Position numbers and translations under genes: made by a program. Under the pieces are notes generated by a model. That model searched no databases, was not told the origin of the DNA, and saw nothing but the letters and a program-made list of their open reading frames with translations. 64,000 nt of DNA. Origin: Lewinella sp. W8 (GTDB lineage Bacteria > Bacteroidota > Bacteroidia > Chitinophagales > Saprospiraceae). The stretch lies in contig NZ_SNAQ03000003.1 of the NCBI RefSeq assembly GCF_004375085.3, positions 310,001-374,000 of the forward strand, written 5' to 3'. Positions 43,640 to 59,125 of the stretch are shown here, in pieces (positions within the stretch are counted from its first letter, which is position 1; every line of letters begins with the position of its first letter).

Positions 43640-45373
43640 CTACCCATTCCGGCGGATTATCTGGAGTCTCCCAATAACCGTGTGTGTGGCATTTTCTACC
43701 TGCCCACCCTCCGGCGTAAACTTTATGGCATTAGATAGTAAATTATAAACAATTTGCTGAAGCTTTTCGGGGTCATAATCCATTTCCATGGCCGCAACCT
43801 CCGAGTAAAAGGTCAGCGTAATTCCCCGGTCTTCCGCCAGGGAGTGGAAGGATTCCGCGAGGTATTTTAGGTAACTGACGATCTCACCGTATACGTACTC
43901 GGCCGTGACCTGCTTGGCCTCGAGGCGAGCAAGGCCCAGCAGCTGATTGATGAGGCGCAGCAATTGCTGCGCATTCCGCCGAATTAGTGAGCTTTCTTTG
44001 GTTTGCCCCCTGAGCTGGTCCACCATCCCCAGAATGACCGTAAGCGGGGTGCGAAATTCGTGGGTGATGTTCGTGTAGAAGCGACTCTTCATCAGGTCAA
44101 TTTCCCGGGTCCGCTGCAGTTCGAGGTCATTTTGTCGGCGGCGGTAGCCCATGCCCATCGCGAAGGTGAGCAAGTGAAGGATGACCGCCGCGTGCACCCA
44201 GTAGAACTGAAGAAAATTCGTGCCCGGGATGTGCTCCGCCAGGTTGAGTGTGGCGGTAGAATTTCCGGTAACGGTCACGGCCGAAAAGAAAAACTCGGCA
44301 CCTGCGTTCAGCGCCACCGCAACCGCCGTAATGCAGCCGGCAAGGGCAAAATAGCGGGCCACCGTATCTCCGGAGCGGAAAAGCACCCAACAGACCCAGA
44401 GGCCGAAGGCCGCAAAGGGGATGATGAGAACTTTGGCGAGGACCAGGCCCAAACCATCGCCCGTCAGGAATAGGATGAGCCCCAGCAGCGCCAGAACGAC
44501 CAGATTGCCCGCGATGAAACGCTGGACGATCCGGTCCCAACGCGGATTGAGCCGCCGGAGCTGGACGAAGCTGCGCATAAAAACGAGGGTCAGAATGCCC
44601 GTCACGTACTGCAAGAGTTGATAGAGGTGCCAGCCCAGGACCGGGTGATTTTTGAACCATCCCGTTTGCCAGTAGCCGAGGTCACCCAGGGTCAGAGCCG
44701 AAATCGAAACCATGTAGAGGCAGTACCAGAGGTAGGAGCTTTCCCGAACGGAGTAGTACAACAACAGATGATACAAAATCAGCACCCAGATCATTCCCTG
44801 GAAGAGTCCGCTGAAGAAATGACTGAAGCCCCTTCTGGTATTCATCTCCAGAAAGCCGGGGCTCATCAGCACGAGGGCCCGCGGGGTTGGCTTGTCGATC
44901 AATTCCTGGAAAGTGACGATCACTTCCGTCGGAATTCCCCCGCGAATAACGAGGGGAGTATGCGCCGAGTAGCCCTCCTGACGGAGGAAGAAACGGGGCT
45001 CCGGTTGCCCTTCAGTATTGGCTTCCGCCACCAGCGTGCCGATTCTGGCGGGTGGGCCACTGCCGGAGACCGTAGCGTCCTGGGCGTAACCAAGAAAGAG
45101 CATTGGGCGGAGATCAACGGCACTCTCCAGCGTGAAGCGGATTTCCTCCCGTTCCGCGTACTCCTCGTCAGTCATCCCCAGCGCGGGGAGGAGCGAAAGC
45201 GTATCCCGCATCGTCAGGGGTTGTCCGTTTACGGAAAGCTGTACGGCCTCCTGCTCCGGGAGCGTGGGGGCCATGGGCCCCGCACAGGCCGGCAACATCA
45301 GCAGGGCCAGGCCAAGTAGCAGCGGCAAGTATTGATCCCGGTAAGTGGACAGTTGCATGGCGAACACCATCAA
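43640..45373 (-). CDS. 7TMR-DISM sensor histidine kinase, truncated in the ATPase domain
   Basis: Signal-like N-terminus (Met6 at 45358 is an alternative start), a periplasmic 7TMR-DISM extracellular beta domain (about residues 35-185), seven membrane segments (about 190-405), a HisKA dimerisation domain with the phosphorylatable His in YTNITHEFRTPLTVILG, and the N-box LQQIVYNLLSNAIKFTPEGG. The protein then ends after 21 further residues, so the G1 (DxGxG), F and G2 ATP-binding boxes are missing, as are any receiver and AraC-type DNA-binding domains that usually follow in hybrid systems of this kind. It should be unable to bind ATP properly. Most likely a degraded gene; a sensor-only role is possible. 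Confidence 0.85.
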   Translation of the reverse strand: MMVFAMQLSTYRDQYLPLLLGLALLMLPACAGPMAPTLPEQEAVQLSVNGQPLTMRDTLSLLPALGMTDEEYAEREEIRFTLESAVDLRPMLFLGYAQDATVSGSGPPARIGTLVAEANTEGQPEPRFFLRQEGYSAHTPLVIRGGIPTEVIVTFQELIDKPTPRALVLMSPGFLEMNTRRGFSHFFSGLFQGMIWVLILYHLLLYYSVRESSYLWYCLYMVSISALTLGDLGYWQTGWFKNHPVLGWHLYQLLQYVTGILTLVFMRSFVQLRRLNPRWDRIVQRFIAGNLVVLALLGLILFLTGDGLGLVLAKVLIIPFAAFGLWVCWVLFRSGDTVARYFALAGCITAVAVALNAGAEFFFSAVTVTGNSTATLNLAEHIPGTNFLQFYWVHAAVILHLLTFAMGMGYRRRQNDLELQRTREIDLMKSRFYTNITHEFRTPLTVILGMVDQLRGQTKESSLIRRNAQQLLRLINQLLGLARLEAKQVTAEYVYGEIVSYLKYLAESFHSLAEDRGITLTFYSEVAAMEMDYDPEKLQQIVYNLLSNAIKFTPEGGQVENATHTVIGRLQIIRRNG

Positions 45374-47997: not shown

Positions 47998-50900
47998 CTA
48001 AAAAAAGAACGATGCTCCCGCGACCGGTCGGTTTACGCCCTGGTTACCCCGGAAGATGCTGAATTTGAGCGTAAAGATGTCGAGTGGACTTACCCAGATT
48101 CCCCCGCCATAGCTGCGGTGCCAGGTGGAAGAGTCCTCACCGGGCGCCCACACCCGTCCGAGGTCGAAGCCCGCAACGATACCCAGGGAGAAGGGAATCA
48201 GTCGACGTTTGGCGTTAATGAGGCGTAGCCGCACGTCATTATTCAGGTAAAGGGCCGACCTTCCCGAGAACCGTTCCCTGCGGTAGCCCCGCAGGTTAGC
48301 GTCGGGGCCAACGCCCCCGAGGGTGGCCGCCTGGAAGTACTGAAAATCGTCGGAGAAAACGGTGGCGAAACCCACCCGGTTGGCCACCACCAGCGTGCCG
48401 TTCTTATCCAGTTGTTGGGTAATACTCAGCGAGGTTTTCAGATGAGCGACGTTGGCGGCATTGTCCCGGAGCGACCAGTTGTTGCCAAGTTCGGCGAAAA
48501 AAGTCAGCCCCTTGGTGGGTTGGGCGGCTGAATTGCGATTGTCGAAGGAAAACCGGGCCTTCAGGGAGAGGAATTCAAATTTGTCGAAGACTCCCGTGCC
48601 CTCCGGGTCTTCAAAGTTATCCGCCAGAAATCGCTCCTCGGTGCGGTTGGTGCTGATGGAGGTGTACTCCGGGCCGAGGTGAAGGATGGACGCTCCGTCC
48701 AGTCTGCGGGCAATGGAGGGGGCAAGTCTGATGAGTTCCTGTCGTACCCGGTGGTAATCATCTCCGTTGATGGCTTCGGTATTTTCAGTGTCGTTGCCGA
48801 TGCCGTAAAAATTGACGCCATAAAAGGCGCTGCGGAAGGCACCGGTGAAGACCAGCTCGTTTTCTCCAAACAGATCCGTAAACTCCCCGTGATAATCAAA
48901 CCGGGCGCCACCCGTGGAAAAAGCATACTGGCCACTGATGGACTGTCGGGTGGCAAAGGGACGTTTTTTAAAGCCGTAGGTGGTGTAAGTTCCCCCCGCT
49001 CCCAGCAGCAAGCCGTTGTCGGGATTGACCCCAATGATGGGCAGGAGGCTGAAGAAGTTATAGTTCTTGTCCAGCGAGAGTCGGCTGTAGGTATTGTAGC
49101 GGGGATGGACCGACCTACGGTCCTTTAAGCCCCCAAGATCACCCAGATCACTTGTCTCGATCTCTTCGGTATAATCATAGAACGCGGTGCGGGATTGACG
49201 ATGGCCCACCGGAGAGGTTACTCTATCCTTGCCGGGGCCGCCTACGAGTCGGATTTTTACCCTACTTTTTTCTTCTCCCGAAAAGTCGAAGGTATCATCG
49301 CCATCCAGTGCGTAGAGGATGATTTCGTCGGTTTCGGTAGCGTAGAAGTAGCGTTGGTACCGGGCCTCTCCCTTAGCTTCTCCCTCCTTGTTGGCGTCGA
49401 AGAGTTTGACCTCAAGGTCGCCATTGGAATGGGTGATGAGGTCGAAGTGGTCTCCCTTGTCAGTACCGGCAATCTCTACCTCCCGGGCACGGAATTCGTA
49501 AAGGTCCCGGATAATTTCCCGCAGCTTATCCCGCCGTTCCTTCAGGATGGCAATGATACCCGGGCCATCGGCGGCAAAGACCTCTTTGGGCCAGGCCTCT
49601 CGGAAGGCGGCCTCGATGACGTCATCCGTGACGGTCGCTTGCAGGTGACGAATTTCTCGTTCCCAGACCTCCCAGCTGATTTCGGAGAGAAAGGTAGCGT
49701 CGAAAAAGCGGTTGCCGTGGGTGGCCCAGTGGATGCGTTTGGGATGCGCCCGGAAGGGCGCCAGTGGCCGGGTATCGGGCGCCAGGAGTCGGGCGAAAGC
49801 CAGGAGGAGCCCGTCGTAATTGGAAAAGGCCTGATCGCGGTCGCGGGGAATGGGAATGTAGTATTTGGCGTCTCCCCGTTTATCGACCACCCAGCGCCAC
49901 TGATCATCGTGTCGGTCCCAGTCGCCCAGGAGCAAGTCAAAGGCCCGCGCCCGGGCCATGGCGGGTACGTCCAGTCGGTAATCGTGGTCTTTCCGTAGAC
50001 CGGCCAGTACCTTCGGCGTGGAGACGATATCGGCGGGATTGCCAAATTGCTCCTGATCTTCCCACAGATCATCGTCCGGACGCTCCTCCACGAGATAGAC
50101 CTTATTCCCGAACTGCGGATTATACTTGCCCAGTGATGGTTGTGCCGGGATGTAGAAAAGCTCCGGATGAGTGTGGTTCACCGTCGCCGCTTCGGCCAAT
50201 CCGGTTACGGGGAGAGCGGAAAGCGGATGGGCGGCGGTAAAGGCGTCCTTGATCAGTTTACGGACTACCCGACTCTGACTCAGCGTATACCCCACCGTAG
50301 CCGTGGGATCTTTCTCCAGGGAACGCATGGTGTACTGCCGACCGTCTCCGGCCTCCAGCCGGACGGACTGGGTCTGGTTCCCCCCACCCTTCTTCACGGG
50401 AATCACTCCTCCACGATATTGCCCCAGATCGAGCATGGGAATGGACAGGGTCTGGGCAAAGCTTTTCCGGTAATGCTCCCCCAGCACGAGCAGGCCCAGC
50501 CTGCTGCGGGTATAATCCCCGTTGACCAGTTTACTGCTGATGGTCGCGTCTTCCGGTAGAGGATAATGGTCAAAGGATGACGGTAATTCATAGTTGTCGG
50601 CCGGTGGGGGTGCCTGGATTTCCCGACGGTACAGTAAAGTGTTTTGCTTGCCGTACTCATCTACCGAATAAAAACTTACCCACATGGATCCGTCCGTATA
50701 GAGGTCGAGCACCGAATAACCCAGTCCGCCGTAGGAGAAAAAGCTTCCCTCCCCTAGCCCCACGGGAGCCACCTTGGAGGCCGAACCGCTGACGATGTAC
50801 CGCTGGTTGTCGTTTTCGATGTACTGCAGACTGTGCTCGTGGCCGGACACAAAGGTGACGTTGCCGTTGAGCTGCACGGTCTCCAGGAGACTCCGCTTCA

Positions 50901-51771
50901 ATTCCTGAAAGGAGGCGTTGAAGTTGTCCTGTTTACTGCCCACGTTCGTTCGTAAAAAGGGCATGATGGACCCCAGCCCCGGTAGGGGGATCCAGAGATT
51001 CTTGTTTACCGTCCGCCGCAGTGGAAACAGATGGTCGCTCAGGGGAAAATGCCCCCCGTGAGGACCGAAGGTTTCCATCGGGTGGTGCATCACCACCACG
51101 ATGTTTTTCTCCTTATTTCCCTTCACGGCGTCGGTGAATCGACGCAGGAAGTCAACGCGGTTACTGGCGTCACAGCCTTCGTTGATTCCCGGATGCTTAT
51201 TCCATTTAGCCAGCCACCACTGACTGTCGATGACGATGTAGACAAGGTTGTCGTGAACTTCCAGAACATCCGGTCCGCCACAGCCCTCTTTTGGGGCCCA
51301 GATTTTCTTTTGATCGAGTGCTTTCTCCAGGTATTTTCGTTGACGCTTCAGTCCTTCGATGCTGTGGCGATACCAATCGTGGTTCCCCGGTACGAAGAGT
51401 ATTTTACCCCCAAAATCCATCAGGGGAGCAAGCTGGGCGTCCAGGCGGTGTTCGGCCAGTTCCCGCTCGGGGGCCGAACGGGGAGGCATGCCGTCGGGGT
51501 AAAGATTATCCCCGAGGAAAATGATGCTGGTGGAAGCGGGTGCGGTCGCCAGTTCCTCCTCCAGGTAGGTCATCACCGCCAGCGGTTTGCCTTCTTTGGC
51601 GTTACCCGCATCGCCGATGAGGTAGGTCCGGTAGGCAAGGTCAGCCGCTTCGGGTGGTGCCTCTAATGCCCACCCCTTGCCGGCCCTGGCGTAGTGCTCG
51701 TGGTAACTGGCACAAGTGAAAAGAAGTGCTCCCATGAGGAGCACGGTAGTAAGTCTGAATAGGTGTCCCAT
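47998..51771 (-). CDS. Outer-membrane lipoprotein: metallophosphoesterase, kinase-like middle domain, BamA-type beta-barrel
   Basis: The ATG at 51771 gives 1257 residues and a lipoprotein signal (LLFTC, Cys18); the frame extends 34 codons upstream without an export signal. Residues about 40-400 form a calcineurin-like phosphoesterase with all metal motifs: IGDAGN, LGDNLYPDG, VPGNHDWYR, VMHHPMETFG, SGHEHSLQY. Residues about 450-800 hold a segment with a Gly-rich strand (KKGGGNQTQSVRLE), LLLGDWDRHDDQWRW (GDWDRH at 616-621) and PIPRDRDQAF (Asp644/Asp646). This arrangement recalls the catalytic and metal-binding loops of Fam20/HipA/PI3K-like kinases. The last about 350 residues are a bacterial-surface-antigen (Omp85/BamA) barrel ending in Phe. 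Stand-alone gene; substrate unknown. Confidence 0.88.
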   Translation of the reverse strand: MGHLFRLTTVLLMGALLFTCASYHEHYARAGKGWALEAPPEAADLAYRTYLIGDAGNAKEGKPLAVMTYLEEELATAPASTSIIFLGDNLYPDGMPPRSAPERELAEHRLDAQLAPLMDFGGKILFVPGNHDWYRHSIEGLKRQRKYLEKALDQKKIWAPKEGCGGPDVLEVHDNLVYIVIDSQWWLAKWNKHPGINEGCDASNRVDFLRRFTDAVKGNKEKNIVVVMHHPMETFGPHGGHFPLSDHLFPLRRTVNKNLWIPLPGLGSIMPFLRTNVGSKQDNFNASFQELKRSLLETVQLNGNVTFVSGHEHSLQYIENDNQRYIVSGSASKVAPVGLGEGSFFSYGGLGYSVLDLYTDGSMWVSFYSVDEYGKQNTLLYRREIQAPPPADNYELPSSFDHYPLPEDATISSKLVNGDYTRSRLGLLVLGEHYRKSFAQTLSIPMLDLGQYRGGVIPVKKGGGNQTQSVRLEAGDGRQYTMRSLEKDPTATVGYTLSQSRVVRKLIKDAFTAAHPLSALPVTGLAEAATVNHTHPELFYIPAQPSLGKYNPQFGNKVYLVEERPDDDLWEDQEQFGNPADIVSTPKVLAGLRKDHDYRLDVPAMARARAFDLLLGDWDRHDDQWRWVVDKRGDAKYYIPIPRDRDQAFSNYDGLLLAFARLLAPDTRPLAPFRAHPKRIHWATHGNRFFDATFLSEISWEVWEREIRHLQATVTDDVIEAAFREAWPKEVFAADGPGIIAILKERRDKLREIIRDLYEFRAREVEIAGTDKGDHFDLITHSNGDLEVKLFDANKEGEAKGEARYQRYFYATETDEIILYALDGDDTFDFSGEEKSRVKIRLVGGPGKDRVTSPVGHRQSRTAFYDYTEEIETSDLGDLGGLKDRRSVHPRYNTYSRLSLDKNYNFFSLLPIIGVNPDNGLLLGAGGTYTTYGFKKRPFATRQSISGQYAFSTGGARFDYHGEFTDLFGENELVFTGAFRSAFYGVNFYGIGNDTENTEAINGDDYHRVRQELIRLAPSIARRLDGASILHLGPEYTSISTNRTEERFLADNFEDPEGTGVFDKFEFLSLKARFSFDNRNSAAQPTKGLTFFAELGNNWSLRDNAANVAHLKTSLSITQQLDKNGTLVVANRVGFATVFSDDFQYFQAATLGGVGPDANLRGYRRERFSGRSALYLNNDVRLRLINAKRRLIPFSLGIVAGFDLGRVWAPGEDSSTWHRSYGGGIWVSPLDIFTLKFSIFRGNQGVNRPVAGASFFF

Positions 51772-51876: not shown

Positions 51877-52491
51877 CTAAAGCCGGGAAAATACGTAGAG
51901 TATTTCCCGTCCGATTTGCCGGGTACGTTCCAGGTATTTGGACGCTTCTTCTGCGGTGCCGTCCGCAACTTTGGGGTCCTCATAGGTCAGCGGAAGACGG
52001 AACGAGGCCCCCGGGATAAAGGGACAATTGTCGTCGGCCTCGGCGCAGGTCATGATGGCCGCAAAATCGCGGTCCGGATTATCTGGATGATCGTAGACTT
52101 TGCTGAAGCACACTAGGGGCTGATGGTCCGCCGAAAACGATACCCGATAGGTAGGATTGTCACCCGCCGCGGGGGGGATGCGGAAACCAACGGACCGTAG
52201 GGCCGTTACGGCCCGGGGATTAAAGGCCGTAGCCTCCGTCCCGCCCGAATACGTGCATACTCCCTCCACCCCGTAGACCGCCGCGGCTACGGCAGCCCAG
52301 ATCATCCCCAAATGACTCCGCCGGGAATTGTGGGTGCAAATGAAGTTTAGGTGAATGCTTTTACCCCGATGATTACCAAGGTATTGAGCAAATCTATTGA
52401 GCCGATCTATGCGGGCCTCTGGAATGAGGGAAAATGAAGACTGAAGTTCTTGAACGGTATTATGGAGTTCGGGAAAAAGAATTTCGCTCAT
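51877..52491 (-). CDS. arsC: Low-molecular-weight phosphatase family protein, probable arsenate reductase
   Basis: A 204-residue protein with the LMW-phosphatase P-loop FICTHNSRRSH (Cys52-x5-Arg58) after a 45-residue helical lead. The C-terminal catalytic segment differs from classic LMW-PTPs; Cys149 and Cys155 in MTCAEADDNC may serve the Cys relay used by thioredoxin-type arsenate reductases. Third gene of a minus-strand set: the ArsR gene ends 12 bases upstream. The context (ArsR, DUF6428-like) supports arsenate reduction over tyrosine dephosphorylation, but no arsenite exporter gene is seen nearby. The symbol is provisional. Confidence 0.8.
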   Translation of the reverse strand: MSEILFPELHNTVQELQSSFSLIPEARIDRLNRFAQYLGNHRGKSIHLNFICTHNSRRSHLGMIWAAVAAAVYGVEGVCTYSGGTEATAFNPRAVTALRSVGFRIPPAAGDNPTYRVSFSADHQPLVCFSKVYDHPDNPDRDFAAIMTCAEADDNCPFIPGASFRLPLTYEDPKVADGTAEEASKYLERTRQIGREILYVFSRL

Positions 52492-52503
52492 TTGGGATAG
52501 AGA

Positions 52504-52836
52504 TTAACAACAGCCACTGCCGCCGCCCTTAAAGGTGTTGAACATTTGATTGATCATGGTCTGGACCTCCCGCCACCGTGCGGCGTTAATGCAGTAACTC
52601 ACGCTGGTCCCCTCGATGGTCCCGGAAATCAGTCCGACTTCTTTGAGGGCCTTCAGGTGCTTGGAGACGGTGGGTTGGGAAAGGGGGATTTCATCGGTAA
52701 AATCCCGGCAGATGCAACAGTCCGTAGACAGTAGTTGCTGCAAAATGGCTACCCGTGCGGGATGGCCGATGGCCTTGCAAATCTCGGCCAGTTTGTTCTG
52801 TTCGTCGGAGTAAATGTCCGTCTTGGTTACGCCCAT
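52504..52836 (-). CDS. arsR: ArsR/SmtB-family metalloregulator
   Basis: The ATG at 52836 gives 110 residues of typical ArsR length; the frame is open to 53010, but that extension is made of the palindromic repeat and is not a likely protein. Winged-helix core: LAEICKAIGHPARVAILQQLL, then the metalloid-site segment STDCCICRDF, then recognition helix PLSQPTVSKHLKALKEVGLI. The C-terminus ends GGGSGCC, a vicinal-Cys tail that could add a metalloid ligand. Likely a repressor released by arsenite/antimonite, acting at the palindrome near 53461. Confidence 0.93.
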   Translation of the reverse strand: MGVTKTDIYSDEQNKLAEICKAIGHPARVAILQQLLSTDCCICRDFTDEIPLSQPTVSKHLKALKEVGLISGTIEGTSVSYCINAARWREVQTMINQMFNTFKGGGSGCC

Positions 52837-52857
52837 GATCGAGTGGTTTTGTGATTT

Positions 52858-52952
52858 GGGCGCGGGGCGCAGGTGCAAAGATTCTGGAAACCTTTGAGAC
52901 AAGGCATGCCTTGTCTCTACAATACCCATTGCATGGCACCTGCGCTCCGCGC
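52858..52952. repeat. Composite palindromic element between arsR and the DUF6428-like gene
   Basis: Outer arms GGGCGCGGGGCGCAGGTGCA (52858-52877) and GGCACCTGCGCTCCGCGC (52935-52952) pair over about 17 bases with one mismatch. Nested inside is a perfect 22-base palindrome at 52896-52917 (GAGACAAGGCA and its complement), followed by TAC. The outer arms are the same motif as at 7708-7771. The element separates two genes of one operon, so it may stabilise, cut or attenuate the transcript. Confidence 0.8.
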
Positions 52953-52960
52953 AAAAAAGA

Positions 52961-53440
52961 TTAGCAGCAGCCTCCCCCGGGAGTACAGGCCTCCTCCTGC
53001 TTGCCGGCAATGAAGGCTCCTAAAGATACCTTCTTACCTGCGGCCGGAATGCCGCAATCAGCTTTGGCCAGGCAGTCCGTTTGGGTCCCCGTCAGCTGAA
53101 GGCGGTTATCGCGGACGTCCAGTCCGTACTTGACGATCGCATCCGCTCCCTGGTATTCCACCTCGACGTCCAGGTCCCCCAATCCGAGTTTGGATTCCGC
53201 CAGGGAAAGGATGTGGACCAGTTTCTCGGGGTGCAGCCGGTGGTCGTAGTCGTTGGCGCTCCACAGCTGAAGGTTCACCTTCTTCTCGTGTCGCATCGTA
53301 CCCCCACAGTCAATGAAATGTTTTGTGGACTCCCCCACTTCCGTAACGTGAAAGTGAGCGGGCACTTCCTCCCCGTTGGGTAGAGCAATGGCGATGGTCT
53401 CCTGACCCGCGAGGTAGGTTTTGAGTTCAGATAAGCGCAT
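52961..53440 (-). CDS. DUF6428-like protein of the arsenic operon, Cys-rich C-terminus
   Basis: The ATG at 53440 gives 159 residues (MRLSELKTYLAGQET); a start at 53461 would lie upstream of the predicted transcription start. The sequence resembles small DUF6428 proteins commonly found beside ArsR genes in Bacteroidota: FHVTEVGESTKHFIDCGGTMR, SANDYDHRLHPEKLVHIL. The C-terminus has several Cys (DCLAKADC, then ACTPGGGCC), similar in style to the ArsR tail. Metalloid binding or delivery is a fair guess, not shown. First gene of the operon. Confidence 0.85.
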   Translation of the reverse strand: MRLSELKTYLAGQETIAIALPNGEEVPAHFHVTEVGESTKHFIDCGGTMRHEKKVNLQLWSANDYDHRLHPEKLVHILSLAESKLGLGDLDVEVEYQGADAIVKYGLDVRDNRLQLTGTQTDCLAKADCGIPAAGKKVSLGAFIAGKQEEACTPGGGCC

Positions 53441-53458
53441 AGTTGTACTGTTTGATTG

Positions 53459-53490
53459 CAAATATAGCTATATTGCTATCAATGAATCAA
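53459..53490 (-). promoter_or_regulatory. Promoter and probable ArsR operator of the arsenic operon
   Basis: On the minus strand TATATTTG (53466-53459) matches the Bacteroidota -7 box TAnnTTTG, with TTG at 53490-53488 spaced 21 bases away as the -33 element. A perfect 14-base palindrome, AATATAGCTATATT (53461-53474), overlaps the -7 box, the classic place and A/T-rich symmetry for an ArsR-type repressor. The start codon at 53440 lies just downstream. Confidence 0.7.
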
Positions 53491-53509: not shown

Positions 53510-56500
53510 TTACCGGATCAAGCTGAATTCTCCCTTGAAGGTGACTTCCCGCCCGTCAATCAAGCGCACGGTAGCCGAATAGACGAACACGGCGGGGTTC
53601 ATGATCCGGCCGCCGAAAGTGCCATCCCAGCCCGCCGCCAGCTCATTGGGCGGAAAATCTTCGTTCGAAAAAACCAGATCCCCCCACCGGTCGTAAATCT
53701 GAAACTGGTTTACCCGCTCAACGGCCTTCAAATCCGCGAAGGGAACGTACCGGTCGTTGACCCTATCTCCGTTGGGAGAAAATGCCGTGGGGAAATATAT
53801 CGCCGAGCGGCGATCAACAATGATCCGGATTCCTCCCTCCACCGGACAACCATCCTCGTCAACCACGGTGATGCGGTATTGGGTACTGCTGCTCGGACGA
53901 GCGACGGGATACAAACAGTCGACGCAACTGAGCCCTTCGGCGGGCGTCCAGCTTACTTCCCCGATCTCATCGGTCGGGAAATTCAACTGGGGCCGCAGTC
54001 GTACCTCCTCCCCCAAGCGGATGACTTCCTCGGTGGGTAAAAAGAGCTCCAGCGTGGGCAGCGGGACGATGGTCTCACTACCCCTCAGTTCACAACCAAA
54101 AATATCCTGAACGACCAGCGGGTAGGTGCCCGCTTCCAGCCCGGAAAAAGTGGGCGTGGTCCGGTAATTTCTTCCGCCGTCGATGGAAAAGGTATAGGGG
54201 CCTTCGCCACCCGTCACGTCCGAAAAATCAATCTGACCAAAGGGAAGCATACAGTTGGGTTGCTGCACCTCGAGGGCAAAATTCCGCACCGGGTCGTCAA
54301 TCACCGTAAAGCTGTCCCGGGCCACGCAACGGTTCCTTTCGTTGAGAATGGTGGCGTAATACGTTCCGCCCGCTCCGACCAACAGCTCTAGTCCGCCATC
54401 CTCTCCGAGGATACTTCCGGTCCCCTCCCAGCTTACTTGAAAATTAGCCTCCAGGTCCGTAACGGCCCTGAGCTGGGCGGTTCTGCGGTCACAATCCAGG
54501 CGTTCCTCCCCGGTCATCGTCAGGGAAGGAAGGCTGATGTCCTGAACGACCACGACCGACGTAGAATCCCGGCAACCGGTAAGCGTATTGAGTACGAGCA
54601 ACTGGTAATTACCCGGCGCATTGATCAGGGGCATCGGCCCCTGCCCCCCGCTGAGAACGTTGCCGTCCTGAGTGGACCACGCCAGGGAAAAGTTATTGTC
54701 CTGATCACTGCGGGAGGCATCCAGCCGGAATTGGTCCCGGGCACAGTTCAACTCTGGAGGCGGAAGAATACTGACCACCGGTAGTTCGCGATCTTCCAGC
54801 ACCTCTACCCCACCCATGGTGTCGCATCCGTTCCGAATATTCGTAATCTGAATCCGATAAACTGCGGGTGCATTCACCACAATGTCTGCATTGTCGGTAG
54901 GTCCCAGGATGTTCCCTTCGGTGGTGGTCCAGGCGTAGCGAAGGGGCGCGCTGCCGCTACCTTCTTCTACCGATACGGAAACGCTGGGCCTCGAGCAGGT
55001 AATGACCGGCGGCGTCCGCAGGATTAGGGAGGGCCGGGTGAAGTCTTCCCGGACCATTACCGTCTCTTCCTCCCGGCAAAAGTTTTCCTGGTTGAGGACC
55101 TGAATTCGGTAGGTTCCGGCCCGATCGTACATAATTCCCGCCTGGTTGCTGGGGCCCAGAATATTGCCGCCTTCGGTTGTCCACGTGTACTGAAGGGAGC
55201 TTCCGTTTGTAACGTTCGCCTCGATTTGTCCGATGGGGCGACGACAATTGAGTTCATCCTCGTCCGCCATCATAATGCGTGGTACCCGAACGTCTTCCAT
55301 CACGAAGCTCGTATCCCGATCCTGACAACCATTCCGGAAATTGGTAACCTCCAGGATAAAGGTGCCCGGCACCCGGGTCGATAGAAAAGAGTCGCGATCA
55401 TCACTTAAGGCAGCATCCGGTGATTGCCACCGGTAGGTGTACGGACCGGACTGACTCGTTCCGGAGCCGCTGAGGAGAATCAAACTATCTCGACAATTCA
55501 GCACACCATCGGGTCCCGCATCCGCCGTGGGGAATAACCGGTCTTCTTCGACAAAGGTGCTGTCGGCGGTGCGGCAACCATTATCCGGGTTGAAGACGTC
55601 CAACACGTACCAGCCCGGGGCATCTACCCGGGGAGCAGCCGGGTCGCTCAGGTCCCGAAAATTACCCGTTTCGGTGGCCCAGGTATAATCGAAATTGACC
55701 GGAGAAGCAGAGCCCGTGGTGGAGATCATCACCTCCTCCCGTCGGCAATTCAGGGTGTCCACGGCAGACAGGACGACGGTGGGAAACTCCAGGTCTTCCG
55801 TAACAATGACTCCTGCTTCGCTGGTGCAGCCATTGCGGTCATTGGTTACCTGCATCCGGTAATTACCTGCTTCCTCAGTCGTAACACTCAGGCTGGAGGG
55901 ATCTCCCGTAAAGCTTCCAGCAATGGCCTCCCACTCCACCGTAAAGTCCCCGGACAGATCAAGGGTAGCCTCCAGGGTTTGGGCCGGGGAGAAACAATTA
56001 ATCTCTAGCGCATCCGGCAGGGAAATGCTGGCCGATACGGTGTCTTGGTCAATGGTTACTTCTGCTTCGCCCTGGCAACCATTGTCAACGTTTATGGTGA
56101 CGAGGTGATAGGTGCCCGGCCTACCAATGCGGGCGATCACTCCCATCGTGTCGGCGAAACTTCCACCGTCGCTGGCCGTCCAGCGATGTCGGAAATTCAC
56201 TCCGGTCTCACTCTGCTGTCCGAGTTGGATCAAGGTATCGAGGCAGGTCAGCGTCTGGGTCGGCCCAAGGCTTACCAGGGGCGCCCGGAAGTCCTGGGAG
56301 ACGACGACGCTATCGGAGGCCACACAACCGTTGCGCGTGTTTTCAATGCGTAACCCTACCGTAGCCGCCCCGCTGACGAGGGCCGTGGTATCCCCCACGA
56401 GGGGCAGCTGATCGCTGCTGGTAGTACTCCAACTGTACCGGAAAATACTCCCGCGGGAGGACCCTACCGTGGATAGATTTGCGGTTGGGGAGTTGCAGTC

Positions 56501-59125
56501 AAGCCGCAGATCGTCCGGCAACGTCAGGAGTGGCGCATGGGTGTCCTGCACTACGGTGACCGAGTCGATTCCACGGCAACCGTTAAGGGTATTGGTGATT
56601 TCCAGCCGGTAGCGACCGGGAGCGTTCACCCGTGGCGTTAAGCCTTCCGCATTATCCAGGATGTTTCCGTCTTCCGTGCGCCAATTAATGGTAAATCCGG
56701 CTCCACCGGAGGAGCCGCTGGCGTCCAGAACGATGCTGCGGTCGGTGCAGCTAAGGAATCCCGGAGCGGCAATGGCCAGCGTGGGCAGGTCATCATTGGT
56801 GGTGACCTGAATGGAGTCTGCGGACCGACAACCAGTAACCGTATTGAGCACCGTAAAGTGATAGGTCCCCGCACTACCGATCTCGGCCACCACGCTGTCC
56901 ACCCCAGCGGTGATGGATCCCGAGGAAGTCTCCCAAAGGTATTGGAAAGGAGGGCCCTGGCTGGAACCCAGCCCGGAGACCACGGCCGAGGTGGTATTAC
57001 AATCCAGCTCAAAGTCGGGACTCACCTGAACCAGCGGAGCCAGGGTATCCTGGACGACCCGAACCGAGTCCACGGTGGAGCAACCGTTGCCGTCGTCCAG
57101 GACCGTCAGGAGGTAAAGACCGGGGGCGATCACCGCAGGTGCCAGGCTATCGCGGTCGGCGCCGAATTGTCCGCCGGTGGTCGACCACACCAGCGACCGG
57201 TCAGGCTCGGCCACCGAGGTGGTGGCCAGAAGTCGCAGCGTGTCACGCACGCAGGTGAGGGTATCGGGCGGGGAGATGGACAGGTCGGGGATTTCCCGGT
57301 CCACGGCGACGATTACCGTATCCCGGCGCTCGCAGCCCGAGCCATTATCCCGGGCGGAAAAGGCGTAGGCCCCTCCGGCGGTGGCCACCGCGACGAGCGT
57401 ATCGGTTGGCCCCGTCAGTTGTCCCGTAGTGGTTGTCCAGTTCAGGGTCAATCCGGATATCCCGCCCGGAATGCTCGCCGCCAGGGAAATGGTGTCCTGA
57501 CGGCAGTTCAGGGTGTCGGGGGTTGCCAGGGTGACATCCGGTCGTGCGAAGTTACCCTGGACTTCCACGCTGGTGCTGTCGGAGCAACCATTATCGTTGT
57601 TGAGGACCACGAGGGAGTAGAGCCCCTCCGCCGTAACCCGTGGCCGTCGGGAAGATTGTCCGGATTGAATGGCGCCGTCCGTAGTTGTCCAGGTGTAGAG
57701 AAAATTACCTCCTCCGCTGGATTCACTCCCGTCAATGACAATACTGGTGTTCAGACAAGACAGCTCCTCCTCCACCCTGGCCTCGGCCAGCGGTGCATTA
57801 GTATTCTCCACGGCGATCTCCGTGGCCATCGCCACACAACCGGTGCGGGTATTGGTGACGACCAGATGGTAATTACCCGCCTGATCGAAATTGATGGCCG
57901 GTTGGTTGGGATCCGTGGTGATGTTTCCGTCCGTAGTGCTCCATACGTAAGTGGTGTTTGACGGGGAGCCGTTGGTGGCCAGCAATAGCCCCTGGTCGTT
58001 GCGGCAATCAATGCTCAGCACCTGATCGATGGTCGCGTCGGGGGCATCATCGTCTACGCCGACGACTACGCTAAATTGATCCGAACAAATCGCAGTCCCG
58101 TCATCGTAGGTGACCGTCAGGGTGTAGGTACCGGGCGCATCCGCTTCGGCCAGTACATCGGTGGCGCCACGGACGATATTTCCGTTTGGGGTGCTCCACT
58201 GGTAGCTGATGTTTGTCCCGGTGGTGGACGGACTGCCGTCCAGGATCACCGTGCTGGTGGAATTCAGGCAGGGAAGATCCAGGGGTGGGAAGACGTTTGC
58301 CTCTACGGAAAACACCTCGATGGTGACGTCGTCCGTTTGCTCACACACCGGACCGAAGAAGAGGTCATCGATGGCAAAATCATTGCCGCTTCCCACCGTG
58401 TTTTGGTTAACGATGCAGATTTCGCCCGCGCTCGCACCCCCTGAATTCCAGACTTCATTGAATTCCTCCCAGTTGCAAGTTGTGGAAGAAGCTCTGAAGG
58501 GGTTACCCAGTAATTGCCCGTTAATGGAAAACTGAAGCAGCGCCGGATTTTCACTGATTACGGACTGTATCCAGGCGTTGAAGATGTAGTCCGTGTTGGG
58601 GGTAATGGAGATGTTCTGGCACCAGACCTGCACGTTGGCGGTCGTGGAGCCGTTGACGACGAGCATCTCTCCGCCGCCCGTATGGTCACCACAGGAGGCA
58701 AAATTGGTGTGGGTTGAGGCGGAGTTATTGCTAACGGCAAACTGCCCTTCTAAAGACAGCAGCCCAAAGGCACCTCCCGTACCGGGAATATACTGACTCG
58801 TAAACCCAACCTGCCCGCCACTGAAGTCTCCATTAACGATCAGATTATTGGATGGATCAAAAACCTGTCCGGTGAGCGTAAAGGTAGTCGTCGCACTTAC
58901 CGTAACGGTTTGCGCCAGACTGGTGGGATCGGCGAAACTTCCTGCGGGAGACCAGATGGCACCGAGGTAATTTGCTCCCCCGGCGCTTCCCAGTAATTGC
59001 ACCTGACCACCGGGGGCGCAAATCCGCTGGTCCGGTCCGGCGTTTACGGTAATACCACACTGTGCTTTAGCCACCTTACCCCCACCCCATCCAGTGAGGA
59101 ACAGGAGGATAAAAATTCTGTACAT
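53510..59125 (-). CDS. Giant surface protein with about 16 Ig/PKD-like repeats and T9SS type B sorting domain
   Basis: A 1871-residue exported protein (signal peptide ends KVAKAQ). An N-terminal Ig-like segment is followed by a jelly-roll-like region (about residues 90-265; NLIVNGDFSGGQVGF). Then come about 16 repeats of 80-90 residues, each ending in a pattern like AGxYxLxVxNxxNGCxxxDSVxVxxD with paired Cys. Near the C-terminus is a PKD/SprB-like stretch (GGEGPYTFSIDGGRNYRTT), then the gliding-motility-associated CHU_C domain (YFPTAFSPNGDRVNDRYVPF, IYDRWGDLVF, GWDGT), which marks type B substrates of the type IX secretion system. Likely an adhesin or cell-surface scaffold. Repeats are diverged, not recent duplicates. 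Confidence 0.95.
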   Translation of the reverse strand: MYRIFILLFLTGWGGGKVAKAQCGITVNAGPDQRICAPGGQVQLLGSAGGANYLGAIWSPAGSFADPTSLAQTVTVSATTTFTLTGQVFDPSNNLIVNGDFSGGQVGFTSQYIPGTGGAFGLLSLEGQFAVSNNSASTHTNFASCGDHTGGGEMLVVNGSTTANVQVWCQNISITPNTDYIFNAWIQSVISENPALLQFSINGQLLGNPFRASSTTCNWEEFNEVWNSGGASAGEICIVNQNTVGSGNDFAIDDLFFGPVCEQTDDVTIEVFSVEANVFPPLDLPCLNSTSTVILDGSPSTTGTNISYQWSTPNGNIVRGATDVLAEADAPGTYTLTVTYDDGTAICSDQFSVVVGVDDDAPDATIDQVLSIDCRNDQGLLLATNGSPSNTTYVWSTTDGNITTDPNQPAINFDQAGNYHLVVTNTRTGCVAMATEIAVENTNAPLAEARVEEELSCLNTSIVIDGSESSGGGNFLYTWTTTDGAIQSGQSSRRPRVTAEGLYSLVVLNNDNGCSDSTSVEVQGNFARPDVTLATPDTLNCRQDTISLAASIPGGISGLTLNWTTTTGQLTGPTDTLVAVATAGGAYAFSARDNGSGCERRDTVIVAVDREIPDLSISPPDTLTCVRDTLRLLATTSVAEPDRSLVWSTTGGQFGADRDSLAPAVIAPGLYLLTVLDDGNGCSTVDSVRVVQDTLAPLVQVSPDFELDCNTTSAVVSGLGSSQGPPFQYLWETSSGSITAGVDSVVAEIGSAGTYHFTVLNTVTGCRSADSIQVTTNDDLPTLAIAAPGFLSCTDRSIVLDASGSSGGAGFTINWRTEDGNILDNAEGLTPRVNAPGRYRLEITNTLNGCRGIDSVTVVQDTHAPLLTLPDDLRLDCNSPTANLSTVGSSRGSIFRYSWSTTSSDQLPLVGDTTALVSGAATVGLRIENTRNGCVASDSVVVSQDFRAPLVSLGPTQTLTCLDTLIQLGQQSETGVNFRHRWTASDGGSFADTMGVIARIGRPGTYHLVTINVDNGCQGEAEVTIDQDTVSASISLPDALEINCFSPAQTLEATLDLSGDFTVEWEAIAGSFTGDPSSLSVTTEEAGNYRMQVTNDRNGCTSEAGVIVTEDLEFPTVVLSAVDTLNCRREEVMISTTGSASPVNFDYTWATETGNFRDLSDPAAPRVDAPGWYVLDVFNPDNGCRTADSTFVEEDRLFPTADAGPDGVLNCRDSLILLSGSGTSQSGPYTYRWQSPDAALSDDRDSFLSTRVPGTFILEVTNFRNGCQDRDTSFVMEDVRVPRIMMADEDELNCRRPIGQIEANVTNGSSLQYTWTTEGGNILGPSNQAGIMYDRAGTYRIQVLNQENFCREEETVMVREDFTRPSLILRTPPVITCSRPSVSVSVEEGSGSAPLRYAWTTTEGNILGPTDNADIVVNAPAVYRIQITNIRNGCDTMGGVEVLEDRELPVVSILPPPELNCARDQFRLDASRSDQDNNFSLAWSTQDGNVLSGGQGPMPLINAPGNYQLLVLNTLTGCRDSTSVVVVQDISLPSLTMTGEERLDCDRRTAQLRAVTDLEANFQVSWEGTGSILGEDGGLELLVGAGGTYYATILNERNRCVARDSFTVIDDPVRNFALEVQQPNCMLPFGQIDFSDVTGGEGPYTFSIDGGRNYRTTPTFSGLEAGTYPLVVQDIFGCELRGSETIVPLPTLELFLPTEEVIRLGEEVRLRPQLNFPTDEIGEVSWTPAEGLSCVDCLYPVARPSSSTQYRITVVDEDGCPVEGGIRIIVDRRSAIYFPTAFSPNGDRVNDRYVPFADLKAVERVNQFQIYDRWGDLVFSNEDFPPNELAAGWDGTFGGRIMNPAVFVYSATVRLIDGREVTFKGEFSLIR

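Follow-up and report, generated by a model that had tools for sequence, protein, structure and literature searches.

A predicted outer-membrane protein of Bacteroidota joins a purple-acid-phosphatase-type domain, a kinase-fold domain and an Omp85-type barrel

Results

Gene and domain layout

We analysed a window of 64,000 nucleotides (the whole stretch studied, positions 310,001 to 374,000 of contig NZ_SNAQ03000003.1) from Lewinella sp. W8, in which one gene (47998..51771, minus strand) encodes a purple acid phosphatase (PAP)-like domain, a kinase-fold domain and an Omp85 barrel. The reading frame of 1257 amino acids (aa) claimed by an earlier note on this DNA is present, running from 51771 down to 47998, and so are the three parts ascribed to it, namely a phosphoesterase, a kinase-like domain and a BamA-type barrel. 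The product is predicted to be an outer-membrane protein and, since its phosphatase-type and kinase-fold domains share a barrel protein, it may both attach phosphate groups and take them off outside the cytoplasm. An alternative upstream start is possible at a GTG (51873); a database copy (P0002; P0001 being the window protein) has 1245 aa, is 12 residues shorter and begins at Met13 of the window protein.

All parts lie on the minus strand. A signal peptide with a lipobox-like end (residues 1-20, Cys20; 51712..51771) is followed by the PAP-type domain (about residues 46-390; 50602..51636) and by the kinase-fold domain, which was recognised by AlphaFold2 (AF2) modelling and Foldseek/VIA and not by Pfam (about residues 410-763; 49483..50544). 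A beta-rich linker, with strands in both models, occupies the usual place of POTRA domains (about residues 764-905; 49057..49482), and the predicted 16-stranded Omp85-type barrel closes the protein (about residues 906-1257; 48001..49056). The complete calcineurin-type metal motifs described earlier are all found in the first domain, as D54, G87-D-N-L-Y91, G129-N-H-D132, V226-V-M-H229-H230 and G310-H-E-H313. These five metal-ligand motifs, including GDXXY, we take to be those of purple acid phosphatases; in the structure comparison the modelled N-terminal domain likewise has the PAP fold.

The middle domain has a kinase-like fold

The AF2 model of residues 395-880 (predicted local distance difference test 90.5, predicted template-modelling score 0.90) is two-lobed and would belong to the protein-kinase-like fold superfamily. 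Among the 50 matches listed by Foldseek/VIA, the nearest structures were PI4KII, CotH and CtkA, followed by mTOR/PI3K, HipA and Fam20. The structure prediction and fold search proposed in the earlier note thus gave a kinase-like fold and recovered the Fam20/HipA/PI3K-like kinases it had named. A Gly-rich strand about 150 residues upstream of the putative catalytic motif was also foreseen; we found G462-G463-G464 (50380..50388) some 155 residues upstream, joining two strands (62-69 and 73-80 of the model) in the N-terminal part. The next strand carries R483...K487 (50311..50325), predicted phosphate-binding basic residues. The fold likeness to PI4KII, CotH and the others carries no information on the substrate. 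PI4KII acts on inositol lipids and Bacteroidota produce inositol lipids, which is a lead and nothing more.

Direct assignment of the middle domain to one kinase family by sequence failed, both in Pfam and in a profile search of PDB sequences. The window fragment gave no Pfam row up to E 10. CotH (PF08757) gave none for the window protein (E up to 1) nor for sets of 5 and 10 kinase-domain proteins (E up to 10), and the Fam20 and PI4KII families gave none for the kinase-domain proteins scanned. HipA_C (PF07804) matched two of 10 proteins weakly (14.1 and 11.4 bits, cut-off 30.5), each time at the catalytic loop of a stand-alone relative; another stand-alone relative is named 'HipA domain-containing' in its source database. 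A profile of 33 kinase-domain rows retrieved no PDB kinase sequence at E<=10, its top rows being short and functionally unrelated (a monooxygenase and HDAC6). In local hhalign comparisons the middle domain scored 37.3 against CotH, above all six control families aligned with it (best 28.8), while the related pair HipA-CotH scored 43.3.

Conservation of the active sites

The GDWDRH and PRDRDQAF segments singled out earlier are present and highly conserved, as a catalytic-loop motif G616DWDRHDDQWRW627 (49891..49926) and a predicted metal-binding motif P640IPRDRDQAF649 (49825..49854), the latter containing P642-R-D-R-D-Q-A-F649. In the alignment of homologues that the earlier note had called for, D619 is kept in 290, R620 in 311, H621 in 317, D644 in 320 and D646 in 319 of 323 rows, together with G462 (314), G463 (316) and G464 (298). 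The view of D619 as the catalytic Asp of D-R-H stands in so far as the residue is mostly kept; the invariant acid is D617 (323/323). The predicted catalytic and metal-binding Asp (D619, D644) fall at canonical places, a correspondence drawn by motif and weak profile alignment and not by coordinates. Neither a non-kinase fold nor a loss of the GDWDRH and DRD residues in most homologues, the two outcomes named beforehand as telling against a kinase, was found. Motifs arising by chance or misreading are ruled out, since conservation and fold are far above chance.

Among the 166 full-length rows, R483 and K487 are both kept in all, and the nine-residue kinase signature (R483 K487 D509 E562 D619 H621 Q624 D644 D646) is exact in 160. 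For the phosphatase, the nine-residue signature has no change in 134 rows, one change in 3 and at least two in 29. When rows are sorted by the domains found, with some cut at contig ends remaining among them, D619, D644 and D646 are all kept in 167/169 three-domain, 54/86 kinase+barrel, 60/61 kinase-only and 7/7 phosphatase+kinase rows. The kinase-like domain thus occurs without the phosphatase in 147 of the 323 rows, 86 with a barrel and 61 alone, some of them contig-cut. One FastTree tree of the 323 kinase-domain rows requires at least 7 changes of the D619 state over all rows, 18 of the phosphatase state among full-length rows and 27 of architecture by length. From the exactness of the signatures, the tree changes and the domain-sorted counts, the kinase-like domain appears as the constant core and the phosphatase as dispensable.

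A widespread family

The fusion is real and belongs to a widespread family rather than being a lone oddity. Window residues 390-900 match 1498 proteins at E<=0.001 (7998 candidates scored), and a profile built from five sequences, mainly of stand-alone forms, matches 928 proteins. Matches at 1e-5, single-domain ones included, occur in 134 of 296 sampled Bacteroidota genomes. The named loci are 80 among the matches listed (565 confirmed), and by title all are from Bacteroidota except one metagenome bin titled Thalassovita; one of them is from Dyadobacter fermentans (L176). The Lewinella genome itself carries a second copy (35% identity), in which the phosphatase has degenerated and the kinase site is intact.

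Lipid anchor and barrel

In agreement with the lipoprotein nature proposed earlier, C20, the lipobox-like Cys, is conserved in at least 90% of the rows of alignment A1 (31 rows, one an empty placeholder), as is Ala21. A simple pattern, used in place of a dedicated predictor, detects a lipobox in 71 of 108 database rows longer than 1200 aa. A hydrophobic N-terminal core is found in 153/166 full-length, 73/91 intermediate (a class with several rows cut at contig ends) and 59/61 short rows, but in only 21/323 interior control segments. Acidic residues behind the lipobox Cys are a surface-export signal. The commonest residues there are ANY and ASY, which are non-acidic and would argue against surface export; both domains would most likely lie on the periplasmic side of the outer membrane.

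The C-terminal surface-antigen/BamA-type barrel held up as well, with an Omp85 match and a TamA/BamA fold in the structure comparison, while the Pfam PF01103 score of 21.1 bits is just under the cut-off of 24. The barrel is modelled with 16 strands, and its RG motif is kept (R1161 in 163/166, G1162 in 162/166 full-length rows); an RG(F/Y) motif and a 16-stranded barrel are marks of the Omp85 superfamily. No POTRA-like pattern was seen in the model secondary structure or in Pfam, the fold of the linker 764-905 not having been searched singly.

Genetic neighbourhood of the family

A PycTM membrane-domain protein, often HD-fused (for example at L082:11651-12832), is a steady neighbour of the family. 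Its cluster occurs at 32 of 56 loci, namely the window and L032-L086, with several of the genomes represented more than once, and the member scanned has HD and PycTM domains. In 28 of 30 genomes hand-picked from the 134, mostly with loci already examined, and in 38 of 42 additional long-match genomes, no more than 15 kb separates a PycTM match from a family member. The two sets have about 1.4 and 1.1 PycTM copies per genome, respectively, and we estimate chance proximity to be of the order of 1% per genome. The frames of 66 linked PycTM genes are of HD-fusion size in 42 cases (at least 390 aa) and shorter in 24 (190-301 aa), so the HD part is frequently absent or separate. PADLOC gave PycTM rows for the PycTM neighbour and none for the window protein. 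Given such steady linkage, this domain may have a housekeeping role, although its name comes from a Pycsar defence effector.

Of 124 family loci, taken among the matches listed with fragment and weak rows left out, 40 have a polyphosphate kinase (PPK1) gene at a distance of up to 20 kb. These loci come from 37 of 106 PPK-bearing genomes, and chance proximity is estimated at about 1-2%. The 40 linkages are not 40 independent events, because 18 share one family (f23), most with one common spacing of 11-20 kb. Single-domain members occur among the PPK1-linked loci too, namely a stand-alone kinase (G118) and a phosphatase of the same kind (G152). Twenty-eight loci were picked as near PPK1 or as own-genome PPK1 controls (L154 and L155, without a family member). 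PycTM, PPK1, an SdiA-regulated-type propeller and the family member form a same-strand row at five of them (L070, L081, L144, L146, L147); at four others (L138-L141) PycTM, a His_Phos_1 gene, PPK1 and the family member occur together in mixed orientation. The His_Phos_1 neighbour is presumably SixA-like.

Also recurring beside the family, often near PycTM/PPK1 cassettes, is a 790-aa protein with a weak GAF match (e.g. L050:4160-6529). At the 51 named loci longer than 13 kb among the matches listed, PycTM occurs at 31, the GAF-like protein at 21, PPK1 at 8 and SdiA-type propellers at 21 and 8 (two query types). The recurring neighbours scanned have phosphate, HD, propeller, GAF-like, peptidase or TPR/cyclase domains.

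The window copy itself has none of the PycTM, PPK1, SdiA-type propeller or GAF-like neighbours of its relatives; the PycTM gene of this genome adjoins the second copy. Just upstream of the gene (51877-53461, minus) are an ArsR-type gene and two others that we take to be ArsC-like (no Pfam match) and DUF6428-like. A role in arsenate handling as a family trait was rejected, as ArsC-, ArsR- or DUF6428-like genes were found at 0 of the 80 named loci among the matches listed (tblastn, 1e-6), 51 of which exceed 13 kb. Elsewhere in the window, also on the minus strand, 53510-59125 encodes a 1871-aa protein whose translation reads as repeated Ig-like segments with a gliding-type C-terminal end, and a 577-aa sensor kinase-like frame (43640-45373) seems to stop within its ATPase domain, perhaps through a frameshift or a truncation.

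Discussion

Three folds in one protein, conserved active-site residues, a Bacteroidota-wide family and the linkage of its relatives to PycTM and, in many cases, to polyphosphate kinase come directly out of the computation. The 'phospho-signalling or scavenging device' of the earlier note remains a putative role. We consider it somewhat probable that the protein is an envelope phosphate or polyphosphate enzyme, with an active kinase-type core and an optional PAP partner on an outer-membrane lipoprotein anchored at both ends. It would be held twice, by its N-terminal lipid and by the C-terminal 16-stranded Omp85 barrel. The kinase-fold domain would be the constant, catalytically active part, passing a phosphoryl group from a nucleotide or a polyphosphate-derived donor to an envelope substrate, and the PAP domain an optional partner that removes phosphate or breaks down the donor. 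The whole protein would then serve envelope phosphate/polyphosphate metabolism and not outer-membrane protein assembly. More tentatively, kinase and phosphatase may form a true pair on one polypeptide, fed by polyphosphate or scavenged nucleotides, in which the PAP domain reverses or fuels the reaction and which is coupled across the envelope to the PycTM protein and polyphosphate kinase.

Several observations weigh against an active envelope kinase. The phosphate donor is its weak point, unexplained because the periplasm is thought to lack ATP. The linkage data describe the relatives, since the window copy lies in an ArsR/ArsC-like stretch and adjoins neither a PPK1 nor a PycTM gene, and the sole hint on the side of the membrane is that no acidic run follows Cys20. 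Sequence-profile support for kinase identity is weak: the PAP control domain reached 32.4 against CotH, and the middle domain scored 22.7 against HipA, under two of the six controls. Gln (Q624) stands in 306/323 rows where kinases usually have the catalytic-loop Asn, and D619 is absent in 33/323 rows, 30 of them among the 86 barrel rows without phosphatase.

Some of these points would also fit a kinase fold with another chemistry, such as nucleotidyl transfer, as in the kinase-fold protein SelO, nucleotide or polyphosphate hydrolysis, or polyphosphate phosphotransfer, the protein then being a scavenging enzyme. The unusual site, with D617 invariant and Q624 in place of Asn, the dispensability of D619 in some members, the polyphosphate kinase and HD-domain neighbours and, to our knowledge, the lack of any expected periplasmic ATP speak for it. 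Non-kinase activities within the kinase fold are also noted in KINtaro (PMC10870513). However, D619 is retained in 290 of the 323 rows. A polar residue also stands five positions past it, as in classical kinases, and we regard a different chemistry as rather unlikely.

The middle domain might instead be a pseudokinase, with the binding of nucleotide or phosphate as its only activity and a role as a gate for the phosphatase or the barrel. Thirty rows have G, A or S in place of D619 (27/86 kinase+barrel, 1/61 kinase-only and 2/169 three-domain), with the remainder of the site nearly always kept in the 27, a pattern of binding without catalysis. These 27 rows, P0144, P0149, P0169 and P0176 among them, are a candidate natural set of pseudokinases. 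For the family as a whole such a role is improbable, as the three acids are all kept in nearly every three-domain and kinase-only row and the phosphatase, the enzyme it would serve, decays more often than the kinase site. We give little credit to a barrel acting as an assembly or secretion factor (BamA/TamA- or PlpD-like) whose N-terminal domains act on clients: the TamA/BamA-like 16-stranded barrel with its RG motif would suit it, and PlpD is an enzyme fused to such a barrel, yet the model has no visible POTRA-like pattern and the recurring neighbours scanned lack assembly-factor domains. Just as unlikely is an ordinary phosphate-scavenging PAP on a barrel with the middle domain as a structural adaptor, given that conservation is stronger in the kinase-like domain than in the phosphatase and that 147 rows have the former but not the latter.

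No general mechanism is known for phosphorylation outside the bacterial cytoplasm, since ATP is not expected in the periplasm. A family matched wholly or partly in 134 of 296 sampled genomes, with a conserved kinase-type site on an outer-membrane barrel and a steady genetic partner, opens the question to tests in laboratory bacteria that are not pathogens. The family would also extend the kinase fold by an unannotated branch and give the Omp85 superfamily a new type of N-terminal cargo. The more tentative kinase-phosphatase pair would be a phosphoryl-transfer system of the Bacteroidota envelope without a described counterpart in the literature searched. No description of the protein or cassette was found in the full-text literature, judged by title and abstract opening and with most subscription papers outside the scope, and a term search of PMC7948968 gave no match. 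The middle domain may already be listed as a kinase-like family, for instance in KINtaro. Table 1 of a study of phosphate-starvation induction (PMC8115612) has one pf00149 row and no Omp85-annotated row, the membership of Flavobacterium johnsoniae in the family not being established.

Comparison with known systems

The lipid-anchored Omp85 proteins of Bacteroidetes, as described in the main text of an Omp85 survey that also names PlpD (PMC4104836), share with the window protein the N-terminal lipid anchor, the Omp85 barrel and the phylum, and carry three POTRA domains; the terms 'metallophos', 'phosphoesterase', 'calcineurin' and 'kinase' are absent from that main text. The 16-stranded barrel and RG motif are common to the window protein and to the Omp85 superfamily (TamA, BamA, PlpD), from which it differs in its kinase and phosphatase domains and in having no POTRA-like pattern seen. 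With the atypical kinases (PI4K type II, CotH, CtkA, HipA, Fam20) it shares the kinase-like fold, whereas this family has no Pfam match over the cut-off, has a D-W-D-R-H-x-D-Q motif and sits on an outer-membrane barrel. In contrast to purple acid phosphatases of the TRAP/ACP5 type, the PAP-type domain is here the N-terminal domain of a membrane protein and is degenerate in 29 of 166 full-length relatives. In animals, the extracytoplasmic kinase Fam20C and the purple acid phosphatase TRAP share secreted phosphoproteins as substrates; these are two separate proteins, whereas here both domain types are found in a single bacterial polypeptide.

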